Source: Thermococcus barophilus MP
GTDB lineage: Archaea; Methanobacteriota_B; Thermococci; Thermococcales; Thermococcaceae
Length of the DNA stretch: 64,000 nucleotides
Reading direction: 5' to 3'
Assembly (NCBI RefSeq): GCF_000151105.2
Contig: NC_014804.1
Coordinates: forward strand, 992,001-1,056,000
Below are positions 29,187-34,659 of this stretch, in pieces. A model generated the notes under the pieces. That model saw nothing but the letters and a program-made list of their open reading frames with translations, searched no databases and was not told where the DNA came from. Position 1 is the stretch's first letter. Every line of letters begins with the position of its first letter. The position numbers and the translations under genes were made by a program.

Positions 29187-29507
29187 ATGATCGAGTTTGT
29201 AATACTGCTCGGCATTATTGGTGGATGGGTCATTTTCGCATCTACTCTATTTTTGATGCTTGCTCTGGGCAAGATGTGGGGCTTACTGGGAATTGCCCTT
29301 TTAATTGCCGGAATTGAAATAAACCACAAACTGAAGGCAAAGTATATGAAAGCAGTTATGGACTATTCACCGAGAGCAAAAGAACTTGCAATGCATATAT
29401 TTGAAATGAATGAGCTTATATTAATGTCATCATATGTAATAGCCTTGGCACTTTATGCAGTCATCCAAAAATACATAGAAATAATGATAAAACTTCCTGT
29501 GGTGTGA
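29187..29507 (+). CDS. Small membrane protein of unknown function
   Basis: 106 residues with two N-terminal helices (about 5-25 and 30-50) and one C-terminal helix (about 78-98). The middle is amphipathic (KAKYMKAVMDYSPRAKELAMHIFEM). The start at 29187 follows GGTGAAAAA and TATA-like sequence (CTTTTTATTAAAC) near 29150; an in-frame reading reaching back to 28971 lies within the nitroreductase gene and is rejected. Its end overlaps the start region of thiI. No function assigned. Confidence 0.7.
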   Translation: MIEFVILLGIIGGWVIFASTLFLMLALGKMWGLLGIALLIAGIEINHKLKAKYMKAVMDYSPRAKELAMHIFEMNELILMSSYVIALALYAVIQKYIEIMIKLPVV

Positions 29508-29512
29508 GAGCT

Positions 29513-30658
29513 ATGTTTAACTGTGTGATAATTCGATATGGAGAAATCGGAACAAAATCAAAGCAAACAAGGAGATGGTTTGAGCAGATTTTGGTGAACA
29601 ACATTAAAGAGGCATTGATTACTGAGGGGGTTGAATATAAAAGCGTTCTTGCAAAACATGGAAGGATAATAGTTAAAACAAATGAAGCAAAAGAGAGCTT
29701 GGATGTTTTAAAGCGGGTATTCGGTATTGTTTCCCTCTCTCCAGCGATGGAAGTTAATGCTGAATTAGAAAAAATCAACAAGACTGCTCTGAAGCTCTTC
29801 CGCAAAAAGAAGAGAGAGCTCAACTTGGAAAAGCCCAAGTTCAGAGTTACAGCGAGACGAATTACAAAGGAGTTCCCCCTGAAAAGTCCAGAAATTCAAG
29901 CTAAAGTTGGGGAGTATATCCTGGAGAATGAAGAGGCCGATGTGGATTTGAAAAACTATGACATAAATGTTGGCATTGAAATTATGGAAGGCAAAGCCTA
30001 CATCTTTGTTGATAAAATAAAAGCCTTTGGCGGCTTACCAATAGGGACACAGGGAAAAGTTGTTGTCCTGCTTAGCGGCGGGATAGATTCCCCCGTGGCA
30101 GCGTTTCTCATGATGAAGAGGGGCTGTGAGGTGGTTCCAGTTCATATATACATGGGAGAGAAAACCCTTGAAAAAGTCAGAAAAATATGGAATCAGCTAA
30201 AAAAGTATCACTATGGTGGAAAAAGTGATTTAATCGTGATCAAGCCAAAGGAAAGGGAAAGGGTTCTCCGAAAGCTTAAGGAGCTTGGGAGAGAAAACTA
30301 CACCTGCATTTTCTGCAAATTCATGATGGTGGAGAATGCCGATAAGATAGCGAGAGAATTTGGGGCTAAAGGCATTGTCATGGGGGACTCCCTCGGACAG
30401 GTTGCATCCCAAACGCTGGAAAATATGTATATAGTTAGCCAAGCAAGTGATTTACCTATTTACAGACCGCTCATAGGACTGGACAAGGAAGAAATAGTAG
30501 GAATAGCAAAAGAGATAGGCACTTTTGAGCTATCAACACTACCTGAAGATGAAGTCCCATTTATTCCAAAGCACCCAGTGATTAGAGGTTCTTGGGAGGA
30601 ATTCAAAAAGCTCTACAGGGAGATCTTCGGGGAAGAACCAAAAGAGAGGGGATGCTAA
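29513..30658 (+). CDS. thiI: tRNA 4-thiouridine synthase ThiI
   Basis: Adds sulfur at U8 of tRNA and may serve thiamine thiazole synthesis. About 381 residues: an N-terminal ferredoxin-like region, a THUMP domain (about 50-170, FRVTARRITKEFP and VGIEIMEGKAYIF), then a PP-loop ATPase with SGGIDS at 188-193 and CIFCKFMM, MGDSLGQVASQTLENM later. It lacks the rhodanese domain of E. coli ThiI, as archaeal forms do. The ATG at 29513 is preferred over GTG 29504. Followed 18 bases on by a paralogue of its PP-loop half. Confidence 0.92.
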   Translation: MFNCVIIRYGEIGTKSKQTRRWFEQILVNNIKEALITEGVEYKSVLAKHGRIIVKTNEAKESLDVLKRVFGIVSLSPAMEVNAELEKINKTALKLFRKKKRELNLEKPKFRVTARRITKEFPLKSPEIQAKVGEYILENEEADVDLKNYDINVGIEIMEGKAYIFVDKIKAFGGLPIGTQGKVVVLLSGGIDSPVAAFLMMKRGCEVVPVHIYMGEKTLEKVRKIWNQLKKYHYGGKSDLIVIKPKERERVLRKLKELGRENYTCIFCKFMMVENADKIAREFGAKGIVMGDSLGQVASQTLENMYIVSQASDLPIYRPLIGLDKEEIVGIAKEIGTFELSTLPEDEVPFIPKHPVIRGSWEEFKKLYREIFGEEPKERGC

Positions 30659-30676: not shown

Positions 30677-31273
30677 ATGGTGAAAGCCGTTGCTTTGCTT
30701 AGCTCAGGGATAGATTCACCTGTAGCTATTTATTTAATGCTTAAAAAGGGGTTAGAGGTCATCCCAATCCACTTTAAACAAGATGAAGGCAAGTATAAAA
30801 AAGTCCAAAAAATTTGGAAGCAACTGAAGGAGCTCTACCCCGAAAGGCTGAAGGAATTAGTCGTCGTTGATGTCTATGAGTACCAAGCTCCCGTTTTTGA
30901 AAAGATTATGGAGATGAAAAAGCACAAGTGGATTTGTGTCTTTTGTAAATTCACTATGTACAGGAAAGCCACAGAGATAGCAAGAGAGAACGGGGCATTA
31001 GCCATTATAACCGGGGATTCCCTGGGACAGGTTGCATCTCAAACCCTTGATAATTTGTTTATAATTTCGCTGGCAACAGATTTGCCGATCTTGAGACCAC
31101 TTATTGGATTAGACAAAGAGGAAGTCATAAAAATCGCCAAGAAAATTGGAACTTTTGATATAAGTATTGAACCTGAAGAAGGTTGCCCCTTTGTGCCAAA
31201 ACATCCAATAATCAGAGGCTCGCTGGGAGAGTTCAGGAGGATATACAAAGAGATCTTCCAAGCCTCATGCTAA
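30677..31273 (+). CDS. ThiI-like PP-loop protein lacking THUMP domain
   Basis: 198 residues, matching the C-terminal catalytic half of the neighbouring ThiI. The PP-loop is SSGIDSP at 9-15 (one Gly to Ser change against SGGIDSP), followed by ICVFCKFTM with a CxxC pair, GDSLGQVASQTLDNL and FVPKHPIIRGS. Without a THUMP domain it must bind tRNA by other means, act with ThiI, or thiolate a different substrate. ATG follows GAGGTGATGAG. The shared blocks show a tandem duplication with domain loss. Confidence 0.85.
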   Translation: MVKAVALLSSGIDSPVAIYLMLKKGLEVIPIHFKQDEGKYKKVQKIWKQLKELYPERLKELVVVDVYEYQAPVFEKIMEMKKHKWICVFCKFTMYRKATEIARENGALAIITGDSLGQVASQTLDNLFIISLATDLPILRPLIGLDKEEVIKIAKKIGTFDISIEPEEGCPFVPKHPIIRGSLGEFRRIYKEIFQASC

Positions 31274-31349: not shown

Positions 31350-32259
31350 ATGAACGTATTTTCAAATACACTCGAGCTTTATGAGAAGTTTAAGCCAACC
31401 CCCCTGGTTAGACTTTCGCTTTCAGACGAAAGGGGGGATGTATTTTGCCAAGTTAGAGTTCTTTAACCCCTTCAGCAGGAGCATAAAAGACAGAGCTGTT
31501 TTTAACATGCTTATGAAAGCCAGAGAGCGGGGAGAAATAAATGGAAGAAATAAGCTTTTTGAAGCAACTTCAGGAAACGTTGGAATTGCCATGGCTTCCA
31601 TAGCAAACATCCTTGGGGTTAAATTTAGAGCATACCTACCCAAGCCAACTCCTACCACCACGGAAATTCTGTTGAGAGTTCTTGGTGCAGAAGTCATAAG
31701 GACAGAGTTCGATACAATAGACCCAGCTATGGTAGAGTTCGTGAAGAGGGAGGCAGAGAAAAACAACGCTGTAAACCTCAACCAGTTTGAAAACGAGGAC
31801 AACTTTGAGGCGCATTACAAATATACCGCAAGAGAGATTGAAAAGCAATTAGAAAGCATAGGAAAAAAGCCGGATGTCATAGTGGCTGGAATCGGGACTT
31901 CAGGGCATATAGCGGGCATATCTAAGTACCTTAAAGAGAAGTACGATACTAAAATAATAGGAGTGGTTCCGGCAAAAGGAGAGAAAATCCCAGGGATAAA
32001 GAGACTTGAAACAAAGCCAAAGTGGGTGCCCATGGTAGAGATTGACCAGATAGTTGAGATAACTTTAAAAGAAGCGATAGAAGGTGCTATAAAAATTGCC
32101 AAGAACGATGGTATTTTGATAGGTTTAAGTGCAGGAGCAACTGTGAGAGCTCTCGAAATGCTCAGGGATGAATACAAAGGTACAGCAGTATTGATGTTTC
32201 CTGACGATGGATTTAAATATGTTGAGATATTTGAAAGATACTTGAGTGGCAGAATATGA
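31350..32259 (+). pseudogene. Cysteine synthase-family PLP enzyme, with apparent single-base frameshift
   Basis: PLP-dependent beta-replacement enzyme (O-acetylserine or O-phosphoserine sulfhydrylase type). The true N-terminus starts at ATG 31350 after GGTGATAAAG and reads MNVFSNTLELYEKFKPTPLVRLSL, then the frame shifts. From about 31438 another frame gives MYFAKLEFFNPFSRSIKDRAVFN, with the PLP Lys in SIKDR, then EATSGNVGIAM, GIGTSGHIAGIS and LIGLSAGA. Both parts fit one protein of about 302 residues if one G is removed from the six-G run at 31432-31437. Either a mutation, a base-calling error, or slippage there. Confidence 0.75.
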
Positions 32260-32555
32260 AATTAGCTGTGTATCTACTGTTTCTCCAAGCTTTCTTTTTA
32301 TTGTACTATTATGTTAGTGAAAACTCCTTAATATATCTGGCATTTGGTTTGTTAAACTTTATCTTAGCATGGGCTATTCTTAGGGGAGAGAAAAGGGCAG
32401 TTAAGGTTACATTGGTTTATAAAGGAGTGGATCTATTTTTCTCAATCCTAATGCTGATGAGTGGAGTTTTAAGTGCTGGAATCAGTGCCTTGATAGACTT
32501 TGCAATAATCCACGATCTTATTGGTCTATTTGGAGCTGGAAATAAGAATAATTGA
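32256..32555 (+). CDS. Small membrane protein of unknown function
   Basis: 99 residues with three predicted helices (about 3-20, 24-42 and 55-90). Its ATG overlaps the stop of the cysteine-synthase-like gene by four bases, so it is translationally coupled to it. It ends GLFGAGNKNN. No family recognised. Confidence 0.65.
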   Translation: MKLAVYLLFLQAFFLLYYYVSENSLIYLAFGLLNFILAWAILRGEKRAVKVTLVYKGVDLFFSILMLMSGVLSAGISALIDFAIIHDLIGLFGAGNKNN

Positions 32556-32570
32556 CACTTTGGTGGAATC

Positions 32571-32604
32571 TGCCCTCCTCCCCGCCCTGAAGGGTGAAGC
32601 TTGC
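32571..32604 (-). mobile_element. Orphan IS605/IS1341-type right end (TnpB omega-RNA 3'-end-like), relic
   Basis: On the minus strand the sequence runs GCAAGCTTCACCCTTCAGGG and then CGGGGAGGAGGGCAG. A short CCCT-TC-AGGG hairpin followed by GCGGGGAGGAGG is what I recall as the typical 3' end of archaeal IS605-group elements and of the guide RNAs made from them. No tnpB or tnpA reading frame lies upstream on the same strand; a zinc-ribbon gene is there instead. It is likely a leftover or a solo end. Based on pattern memory, not a search. Confidence 0.5.
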
Positions 32605-32641
32605 AAAAGAAAAAAATCAAAATCCAAGAGCTGAGGTGCGA

Positions 32642-33496
32642 TTATCCTCTAACCTTTCCAGGGATCACCTTCTCCAGCGTACTTTTTAGCCCATAGTACT
32701 CGTCCTTATTGCCTATACTAACTTCCACTTTTCTGGTTTTTCCTTTTTCTGGATCTCTGTATCTGATTTCGACTCCTGAAGACAGCCATCCCTTTTTGAA
32801 CTTAATCTCCTTCACAAGCTCATATGGACAGAAAAATTCGTACCCTATTAGCTCCCCGTTGTCAACTCTACCAATGGCTATGCCATCATTTAAAACGCAA
32901 ATATCTTTGTAAACACCATCGTCATCTAAGAAGGAAGCATAAAAGAGAACTCTTCTGGATTCTTTTAATCCTTTTATCTGCTCTGACCACTCATTAAAAA
33001 TATTCTTATCTGTATAAAACCTGCGAATAATTTTTTGAACTTCTTCTCTGCTGGCGTTGTATGAGATATCAAATGCGGTTTCAAGCTTTCTAACTCCTCC
33101 CTGAACCATATATGTTCTGTCCGGGTTCAAATATACGAAAAGTGTCCCTTCTTCTCTATCTAACGTAAGAGTTACAGGCACTTTCTTTCCTTTTTTCAAA
33201 TCTTTTATGTCTTTTTTTGGATACTCGGTTGGTAGTTGTGAAAACACCTTAAGCGTATCTTCAAGCGTTAGACTACCAAGATTAATCTCCACCCCTTTCC
33301 CGGTATATTTCCTCAAATCTTCAGAAACTCCCACAACACTCACAGTGCATTTGGTTTCCGGGAATTTAACACGAAATTCATTGGACATCGGTTTTTTTGA
33401 GTAAATCTTTTCCTTAACTTTACGTAAATCGTAGCCACATACCGGGCAAAAATCAAACTCCTCATCGAGCTGAGTTCCACATTTTGGGCAGTACAT
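32642..33496 (-). CDS. Zinc-ribbon protein, paralogue A
   Basis: 284 residues. The N-terminus MYCPKCGTQLDEEFDFCPVCGYDL has two CxxC pairs forming a zinc ribbon. The rest is beta-rich, with a domain starting VSVVGVSEDLRKYTGKGVEINLGSLTLEDTLKVF. This domain resembles that in the divergently encoded gene at 33703 (for example SLTLEDTLKVFSQLPTEYP against KLTLNEALALFERLPREYP), so the two are paralogues. No membrane segment. The ATG at 33496 follows GGTGGGAAGC. Function unknown. Confidence 0.75.
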   Translation of the reverse strand: MYCPKCGTQLDEEFDFCPVCGYDLRKVKEKIYSKKPMSNEFRVKFPETKCTVSVVGVSEDLRKYTGKGVEINLGSLTLEDTLKVFSQLPTEYPKKDIKDLKKGKKVPVTLTLDREEGTLFVYLNPDRTYMVQGGVRKLETAFDISYNASREEVQKIIRRFYTDKNIFNEWSEQIKGLKESRRVLFYASFLDDDGVYKDICVLNDGIAIGRVDNGELIGYEFFCPYELVKEIKFKKGWLSSGVEIRYRDPEKGKTRKVEVSIGNKDEYYGLKSTLEKVIPGKVRG

Positions 33497-33702
33497 GCTT
33501 CCCACCCACTTTATTTTATCAAAAATTCTTGGATATAATTAAACATTTTTAGCACCTATTATTTTACATAATTGGTTAAACACTTTTAGTTTATAAAAAA
33601 TTTATTAAGATTTGGCCACCTAAATAACCACTGAATACCTAAATACATTGGGCTGGAGCCTCTTCTTTATAGGGGCTTTGGCTCATAGTGGAGGGGAATA
33701 GC

Positions 33703-34659
33703 ATGGGACATAATTTTAGGTTCTGTCCCTACTGCGGCGGGGAGCTTAAGGAGAACTATAAATTTTGTCCGTACTGTGGAAAACCTCTCGAATCCTCTGA
33801 ATCCATTGAAAAACCAATTTCCGAATCGGCTGTTGTGAAAGAACATATCCAACAAATATCAGACAGACCAAAAGAGGAATTCTCCCTGTCTTATATTCCC
33901 CGAGGGAAACCAGAACCCAAGAAGGTCAAGCGTAAGGTAAAAGTAACTGGGGTGGATAAAGACCTGAGATTCAACGGATCTAAGGGCACAAAGTTTGGAA
34001 AACTCACACTTAATGAAGCACTTGCTTTATTTGAGAGACTGCCAAGAGAGTATCCTTATTTTTCGGAAGATGCAAATCCAATAGTCTTTGAGCTTAACGA
34101 TGGTGCCCTGAGAATTGGATTGAGAACAGATGGACAATACCAGATTACATCAGTGCTACCTATTCGAGGAACTGTAATAGGATTTACACTGCTTGAGCAT
34201 GCAAGCTTTGAAGAGGCACTTGGAGCTATTGAACGATTTTATAAGGAGAAAGACTTCTGCAAAAATGCATATTATGCAAAGGAAAGGTACCTCGAGAAGC
34301 AAGAAGTCAGAGAAGGTAAATATCTTCTGAAAATGCCTGGAATATTTGTGAGGTACGATGGTGACGTAAAAATCCCCTCCGTCCTCTATTTAACCGCAAA
34401 GGGACTTGAATTCTACGGTCATGAAGGGATTTACTATTCCATGGAGATTCCGGAAAATCTACCTTATTTTGCCAGAGAAGGCATAAGAAGGATAAAATTC
34501 AACAAAAAGCGCACTGAAATGGAGGTTACATACGTTGACGATAGTGGAAAGAAGGGTAAATTCACATACGTCTTTCTCATTCCGGAAGAAGGAGATAGGT
34601 ACTATCAGGTGCTCTCTTCCCACTTCCCCGGAAAAGTTAAGATAGGAGGTTGGTTCTGA
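33703..34659 (+). CDS. Zinc-ribbon protein, paralogue B
   Basis: 318 residues. N-terminal zinc ribbon with four CxxC-type cysteines (FRFCPYCGGELKENYKFCPYCG), then a Ser/Glu-rich linker and a domain related to paralogue A (VKVTGVDKDLRFNGSKGTKFGKLTL). The ATG at 33703 follows GGAGGGGAATAGC. It heads a three-gene plus-strand group with a small membrane protein (overlap by one base) and a large secreted repeat protein, suggesting a common envelope-related role, which remains a guess. The leader can form a GC hairpin (33655-33680). Confidence 0.75.
   Translation: MGHNFRFCPYCGGELKENYKFCPYCGKPLESSESIEKPISESAVVKEHIQQISDRPKEEFSLSYIPRGKPEPKKVKRKVKVTGVDKDLRFNGSKGTKFGKLTLNEALALFERLPREYPYFSEDANPIVFELNDGALRIGLRTDGQYQITSVLPIRGTVIGFTLLEHASFEEALGAIERFYKEKDFCKNAYYAKERYLEKQEVREGKYLLKMPGIFVRYDGDVKIPSVLYLTAKGLEFYGHEGIYYSMEIPENLPYFAREGIRRIKFNKKRTEMEVTYVDDSGKKGKFTYVFLIPEEGDRYYQVLSSHFPGKVKIGGWF

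Follow-up and report, generated by a model that had tools for sequence, protein, structure and literature searches.

A short hairpin in an intergenic gap of Thermococcus barophilus MP resembles one end of an IS605-group element and has no transposon gene beside it, which raises the question of whether it is part of a guide RNA or something left behind by a transposon. The original prediction, made on the 64,000-nucleotide stretch of DNA analyzed here (the window), placed a minus-strand hairpin motif within positions 32571–32604 and offered two readings of it, a solo relic of a right end (RE) or a stand-alone, possibly domesticated, RNA. The motif is present exactly as predicted: CCCTTCAGGGCGGGGAGGA is the sole match at up to three mismatches within the 64-kb window, and no match at this tolerance was found in 100 dinucleotide shuffles of the window. 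It sits in an 86-nt gap between two convergent frames. The predicted interval lies inside the feature but covers only part of it, the whole unit being 46 nt long (Table 1).

Table 1 Coordinates of the features at the locus and of three related elements of the host genome. Positions are those of the window unless a locus is named.
Feature	Position	Strand	Basis
Presumed target (transposon-associated) motif TTGAT, to the left of the element	32616–32620	−	Sequence read
Left-end (LE) half of the hybrid, T-rich, TTTTTTCTTTTGCAAGCTTCA	32595–32615	−	17/21 to LE consensus
Hairpin common to LE and RE with the first RE-specific bases, CCCTTCAGGGCGGGGAGGA	32576–32594	−	Exact match, aligned copies
Remainder of the RE tail, GGGCAG (GGTCAG in most copies)	32570–32575	−	Aligned copies
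Whole unit, a decayed terminal-only element (46-nt fused LE/RE hybrid)	32570–32615	−	91% identity to G003 hybrid; single-strand DNA fold lost
Zinc-ribbon protein gene, 287 codons, stop 27 nt before the unit	32642–33505	−	Frame list
Frame of 99 codons on the opposite side of the unit, convergent, without a Pfam match	32256–32555	+	Frame list, Pfam search
L001	1128–1525 of locus
L003	1132–1525 of locus
L004	1154–1525 of locus

The aligned copies fall into three kinds. Scaffold REs carry an omega-RNA-like scaffold before the hairpin; LEs carry TTAC-ATTTTTCTTTTGAAAGCCTCG before it and ATGCAG after it; and in hybrids this hairpin is preceded by the LE part and followed by the RE part (GGAGGAGGTCAG). 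The LE and RE of parent elements have in common this hairpin of approximately 16 nt (CCCTTYAGGGCGGGGA), and both ends are visible within one locus at L121 and L154. The 21 bases before the window hairpin match the LE consensus well enough (Table 1) that no other place on either strand of the window exceeds 15/21, and their score was reached by one of 200,000 shuffles of the 50 nt preceding the hairpin. With an LE score of 0.52 and an RE score of −0.10, the copy was classed as a hybrid; the 99th percentiles of the null, taken from random upstream stretches, were 0.08 and 0.10, and its highest values were 0.84 for LE, from a stretch that is probably a real LE, and 0.24 for RE. The unit matches a hybrid of a relative of the same genus (G003) over 46 nt at 91% identity (E = 1.5 × 10−11), compared to 37 nt at 86% for a scaffold RE, and agrees with the consensus hybrid in 44 of 51 alignment columns. 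A truncated RE, first suggested by the 37-nt match, was ruled out, as both the aligned copies and LE scoring show LE sequence to the left of the hairpin. The predicted likeness to an IS605-group right end therefore stands as regards derivation, such ends being common in the family, but what precedes the hairpin is left-end sequence and not an omega-RNA scaffold.

With its LE and RE halves joined round a single palindrome in approximately 50 bp that hold no transposase gene, the unit has the form of a terminal-only PATE, and the palindrome is repeated at both ends of a full parent: L009, a 1,460-nt element of the same genome comprising an LE, a 435-codon tnpB and an RE, has LE and RE hairpins of the window type. 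The host genome contains four places with at most one mismatch to CCCTTCAGGGCGGGGAGGA and six with at most three, and a second decayed hybrid was found at L222. Most probably, the window feature derives from an IS605-group, tnpB-carrying element as a terminal-only form that has since decayed.

Decay is apparent in both the fold and the terminus. As single-stranded DNA, the consensus hybrid forms an 8-bp hairpin of −8.7 kcal/mol, a value reached by 6 of 200 shuffles, compared to −2.1 kcal/mol for the window copy, which 180 of 200 shuffles reached. The terminal tetramer of the window copy is GCAG, while TCAG occupies this place in 46/58 hybrids and 36/40 scaffold REs, so that the combination of intact subterminal hairpin and cleavage tetramer expected of a functional IS200/IS605 right end is missing. 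Its flanking TTGAT is one of several motifs found directly before the 58 sampled hybrids (TTGAT in 3, TTAC or TTTAC in 26 and TTGAC or TGAC in 13). Judged from its bases, the copy would make no omega RNA and be inert.

No tnpB lies next to the motif, which is at position 1024576 of the genome; the four PF07282 matches of the host genome are at 669970 (below the cut-off), 760083, 1706741 and 1792192. A profile search of the host genome (G000, 99.83% complete) for Y1_Tnp, the tnpA domain, gave no match, and a Y1_Tnp match was present in 21 of 81 family genomes; one tnpA gene is represented in G039 by five matching copies. The original prediction was accordingly right that no tnpA or tnpB frame adjoins the motif, and related tnpB genes exist in the host genome and across the family. 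Of its two readings, the solo relic is borne out, in the form of a decayed LE/RE fusion without tnpB.

Elsewhere in the window, the zinc-ribbon proteins encoded at 32642–33505 (−) and 33688–34659 (+) are diverged copies with 39% identity over residues 4–170. The adjacent frames at 29504–30658 (+) and 30677–31273 (+) have, by eye, an SSGIDSPVA motif and much of the C-terminal part in common; they resemble a ThiI-type protein with an abbreviated second copy of its catalytic part behind it.

Hybrids were then counted across genomes. The CCCTTCAGGGCGGGGAGGA pattern at up to one mismatch was found in 54 of the 121 genomes searched, 52 of these belonging to the family of the window itself (73 genomes), and a reversed control pattern was found in 1 of 121. 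A sample drawn with an RE-like pattern from loci L001–L006 and L047–L174 (147 matches minus repeats) gave 131 distinct rows. Scoring assigned 58 of them to hybrids, 40 to scaffold REs and 6 to LEs, and left 27 unassigned. When LE flank and hairpin were combined into one pattern, which captures LEs and hybrids together, 59 of the 81 family genomes contained it at up to three mismatches. Across nine genomes, comprising the host and eight others chosen mostly for high copy number, 145 rows of a similar pattern were classed as 83 hybrids, 50 LEs and 12 others; the scripted tally (83, 52 and 10) was adjusted by eye, with G062 and G019 each having one LE row reassigned to the hybrids and G000 and G070 each having one hybrid row reassigned to the others, and a further decayed row of G121, readable as a hybrid, was left as scripted. 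G047 has hybrids at some twenty sites. When the L127 locus was used as the query, most short matches among those listed, in many genomes, spanned about positions 290–346 of 640, and the unit is therefore discrete.

Two further observations concern the scaffold REs. At L151, L153 and L155, and at L061, L063 and L098 (RE rows), other internal deletions join scaffold parts directly to the RE hairpin, with recurrent junctions. L062 (G051) and L065 (G048), each with an RE at 1501, are scaffold REs without a tnpB match, apparently at the same site, with right flanks 94% identical over 85 nt; to go by these flanks, they are perhaps a conserved stand-alone guide RNA with one guide common to two species.

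Sites with and without the hybrid were compared between genomes. At L127, G033, G054 and G064 have a hybrid, and G121 reads CCGGTGAC followed by AGGCTC with nothing between; no recognizable hybrid was found at this locus in G055 and G062. Over 1,800 nt on one side of L127, G121 is 99.1% identical to G033, 98.1% to G054 and 92.2% to G064. Precise loss in G121 is the simplest reading of these alignments, and separate gains or transfer of an empty allele are possible. The breakpoints have no base in common; the six bases before each are alike, not identical (GGTGAC and GGTCAG). Approximately 50 nt from the site, G121 has a further element end abutting CTGAAGC, where G033 has TTTTAC. At L161, the G003 hybrid follows CATTAC, and the host and G005 have CATTAC followed by other sequence. 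Around position 1500 of the same locus, G003 is without approximately 200 nt that G005 has right of the hybrid site, as if a deletion had accompanied or followed the hybrid. No pair of full element and hybrid at the same site in different genomes was found among the loci compared; fusion in place was therefore not seen directly.

Hybrids of this anatomy are thus abundant and discretely bounded, and one is precisely absent from a close relative. By analogy to Haloquadratum, their best-supported origin would be fusion of LE and RE across the common hairpin and removal of the core. If all that lies between the two hairpin copies were lost, what remained would be one hairpin with the left half of the LE and the right half of the RE, a product of 46–47 nt still bounded by a target of the TTAC/TTGAC type and by TCAG. 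Recombination, replication slippage or repair copying across the common hairpin may produce such a hybrid. The loop base, C in 44 and T in 14 of the 58 hybrids and C in 35 and T in 5 of the 40 scaffold REs (counts biased to C, as the sampling pattern contained C), fits crossovers at varying places in the hybrids; LE-tailed rows mostly have T in the loop (33/52 CCCTTTAGGG, 3/52 CCCTTCAGGG). TnpB cuts the healed donor joint at the target motif and guide (PMC8612924, in part), and the scar would escape it, since target motif and guide sequence are not adjacent there any more. A counter-point to collapse comes from G016 and G062, which have 12 and 6 hybrids, respectively, and no LE-tailed row, a distribution equally compatible with the amplification of hybrids and with many full elements having collapsed.

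Amplification of this kind is the core of an alternative that we regard as doubtful, in which the 46-nt single-hairpin element is independently mobile, moved in trans by TnpA, with the window copy as a dead member. The precise absence in G121 and the hybrid-rich genomes without LE rows both speak for it, and the authors of the Haloquadratum study suspected mobility of the 52-bp version (PMC3119063, in part). However, the absence concerns one locus, where empty-allele transfer or separate gains would serve as well and where the bases before the two breakpoints are alike; G016, G047 and G062 gave no Y1_Tnp match; and REP singlets, which likewise consist of one hairpin, are considered immobile (PMC3116915, in part). 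Carried to its full extent, and offered here tentatively at best, the idea would give Thermococcaceae a family of independently mobile 46–47-nt elements that are among the smallest mobile DNAs: they would arise by TnpA excision, TnpB cutting and sister-chromosome repair with a template switch at the LE/RE hairpin, and would persist as TnpB-invisible yet TnpA-excisable in trans.

That the unit is explained by a role in terminating transcription of the minus-strand zinc-ribbon gene, whether as a native terminator or as one co-opted from the scar, is improbable. Archaeal transcription ends at T-rich tracts, and the T-rich LE half starts 27 nt past the stop of this gene. Among the sampled hybrids, 45/58 lie outside frames of at least 80 codons, compared to 47/433 control positions, and 20 of these 45 are within 150 nt downstream of a same-strand stop, compared to 11 of the 47 intergenic controls, although this excess is modest and the counts are raw, irrespective of gene layout. 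Homology to mobile ends moreover accounts for the sequence without selection for termination. The terminator and scar readings can both hold.

The stand-alone guide RNA, in which the RE-like end would be transcribed and program a genomic TnpB in trans with a guide below 32570, is very improbable: the RE tail and hairpin are present, tnpB frames of 434 and 435 codons lie elsewhere in the genome, stand-alone tnpB-related ncRNAs are reported in Pyrococcus abyssi (PMC3124441, in part) and HgcC RNAs occur in T. kodakarensis at a distance from transposase genes (PMC4247193, in part), but the scaffold is absent, with LE sequence in its place. A 216-nt query containing the L003 scaffold RE matches the window copy over 37 nt only, and the 47 nt between the hairpin and the stop codon of the neighboring gene, 21 of them LE sequence, hold no structured RNA body of the kind found upstream of the RE tail in a stand-alone omega RNA. 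At the window copy, HgcC (RF00062) scores 21.4 bits, short of its gathering score of 50, its 5′ half overlying the neighboring coding sequence, and neither HgcC nor sot0042 was matched in the 3-kb locus L220 at E 0.1. With one TnpB as the query, a tnpB was found within 200 nt upstream of 25/40 scaffold REs, 6/27 unassigned rows and 0/58 hybrids. The sot0042 model separates the two classes, matching 9/11 scaffold REs and 0/9 hybrids. HgcC, at E up to 0.1, matched 11/11 scaffold REs (none at the gathering score) and 8/9 hybrids (24.6 to 42.9 bits); it was dropped as a discriminator, matching both classes because its score is carried by the common 3′ end.

A conserved domesticated RNA was likewise dropped for the window copy, as it is absent from all three relatives with the same gene order (G002, G003 and G005), in which the sequence of the gap is too diverged to align; G006 and G014 have different neighbors at the corresponding place. 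A guide-RNA function, as suggested in the original prediction, is not supported for this copy by its sequence. The candidates for stand-alone guide RNAs in the host genome would instead be L001, L003 and L004, of 398, 394 and 372 nt, which consist of an LE, an omega-RNA-like region and an RE without tnpB; of these, L001 and L003 are matched by HgcC and sot0042 without reaching the gathering scores.

REP singlets are defined by a GTAG-type tag, which is absent from the 46-nt window unit, and no Y1_Tnp match that could represent a REP-associated Y1 transposase was found in the host genome. The hybrids resemble bacterial REP singlets and REPINs as short single-hairpin repeats tied to IS200/IS605 transposition (PMC3116915, in part), but differ from REP singlets in having tens of copies and in being built from the two ends of a tnpB element. 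Omega RNAs (reRNAs) of IS200/IS605 tnpB elements also end in an RE tail followed by flanking DNA (PMC8612924, in part), whereas the window copy has no RNA body of approximately 150 nt, no tnpB and LE sequence before its hairpin. The HgcC consensus ends in a hairpin and GGAGGAGGUCAG tail like those of the window unit, but HgcC, like presumably the sRk48/sRk52 ncRNAs of Thermococcales, has a structured body before this end, which the window copy is without; related RNAs of P. abyssi are sRk48/52 and sRkB/C (PMC3124441, in part).

The end of the HgcC consensus is an IS605-group RE hairpin and tail, and RF00062 matches at L122, L080, L119 and other loci. In T. kodakarensis, three of five expressed HgcC copies lie in transposase genes (PMC4247193, in part). 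Given that consensus end, the orphan HgcC ncRNA family appears to consist, at least partly, of tnpB omega RNA.

The closest likeness in form is to the terminal-only PATEs of Haloquadratum walsbyi (HqIRS46 and the short forms of ISHwa23), which have IS605-type ends fused round one near-terminal palindrome, a lost core, many copies and a tnpB-carrying parent; there, palindrome repeats of 19–22 bp leave 52-bp terminal-only elements, compared to 46–47 nt for the Thermococcaceae hybrids (PMC3119063, in part). The Haloquadratum elements differ in sequence and host family, and the deletion is documented there by four pairs in which a full and a short form occupy the same site (PMC3119063, in part), whereas the Thermococcaceae loci compared gave no such pair and one precise absence instead. 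The terminal-only PATE is therefore a known kind. No report of LE/RE hybrids in Thermococcales or Thermococcaceae was found in the open-licence literature searched.

The window copy is a genuine yet unremarkable relic in a state of decay; of greater interest is the population of hybrids. Among the solo 'omega-RNA 3′ ends' of Thermococcales, many would not be guide RNAs: the largest class in the sample (58/131 rows) consists of fused scars without a scaffold, and counts of stand-alone guide RNAs made by RE tail alone would therefore be inflated. The hybrids offer a natural system for studying the remains of TnpA and TnpB activity, here a scar in which a TnpB target should not be present any more. 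This kind of scar is common in relatives of this heat-loving archaeon, and in one of them an apparently precise loss was seen (L127).
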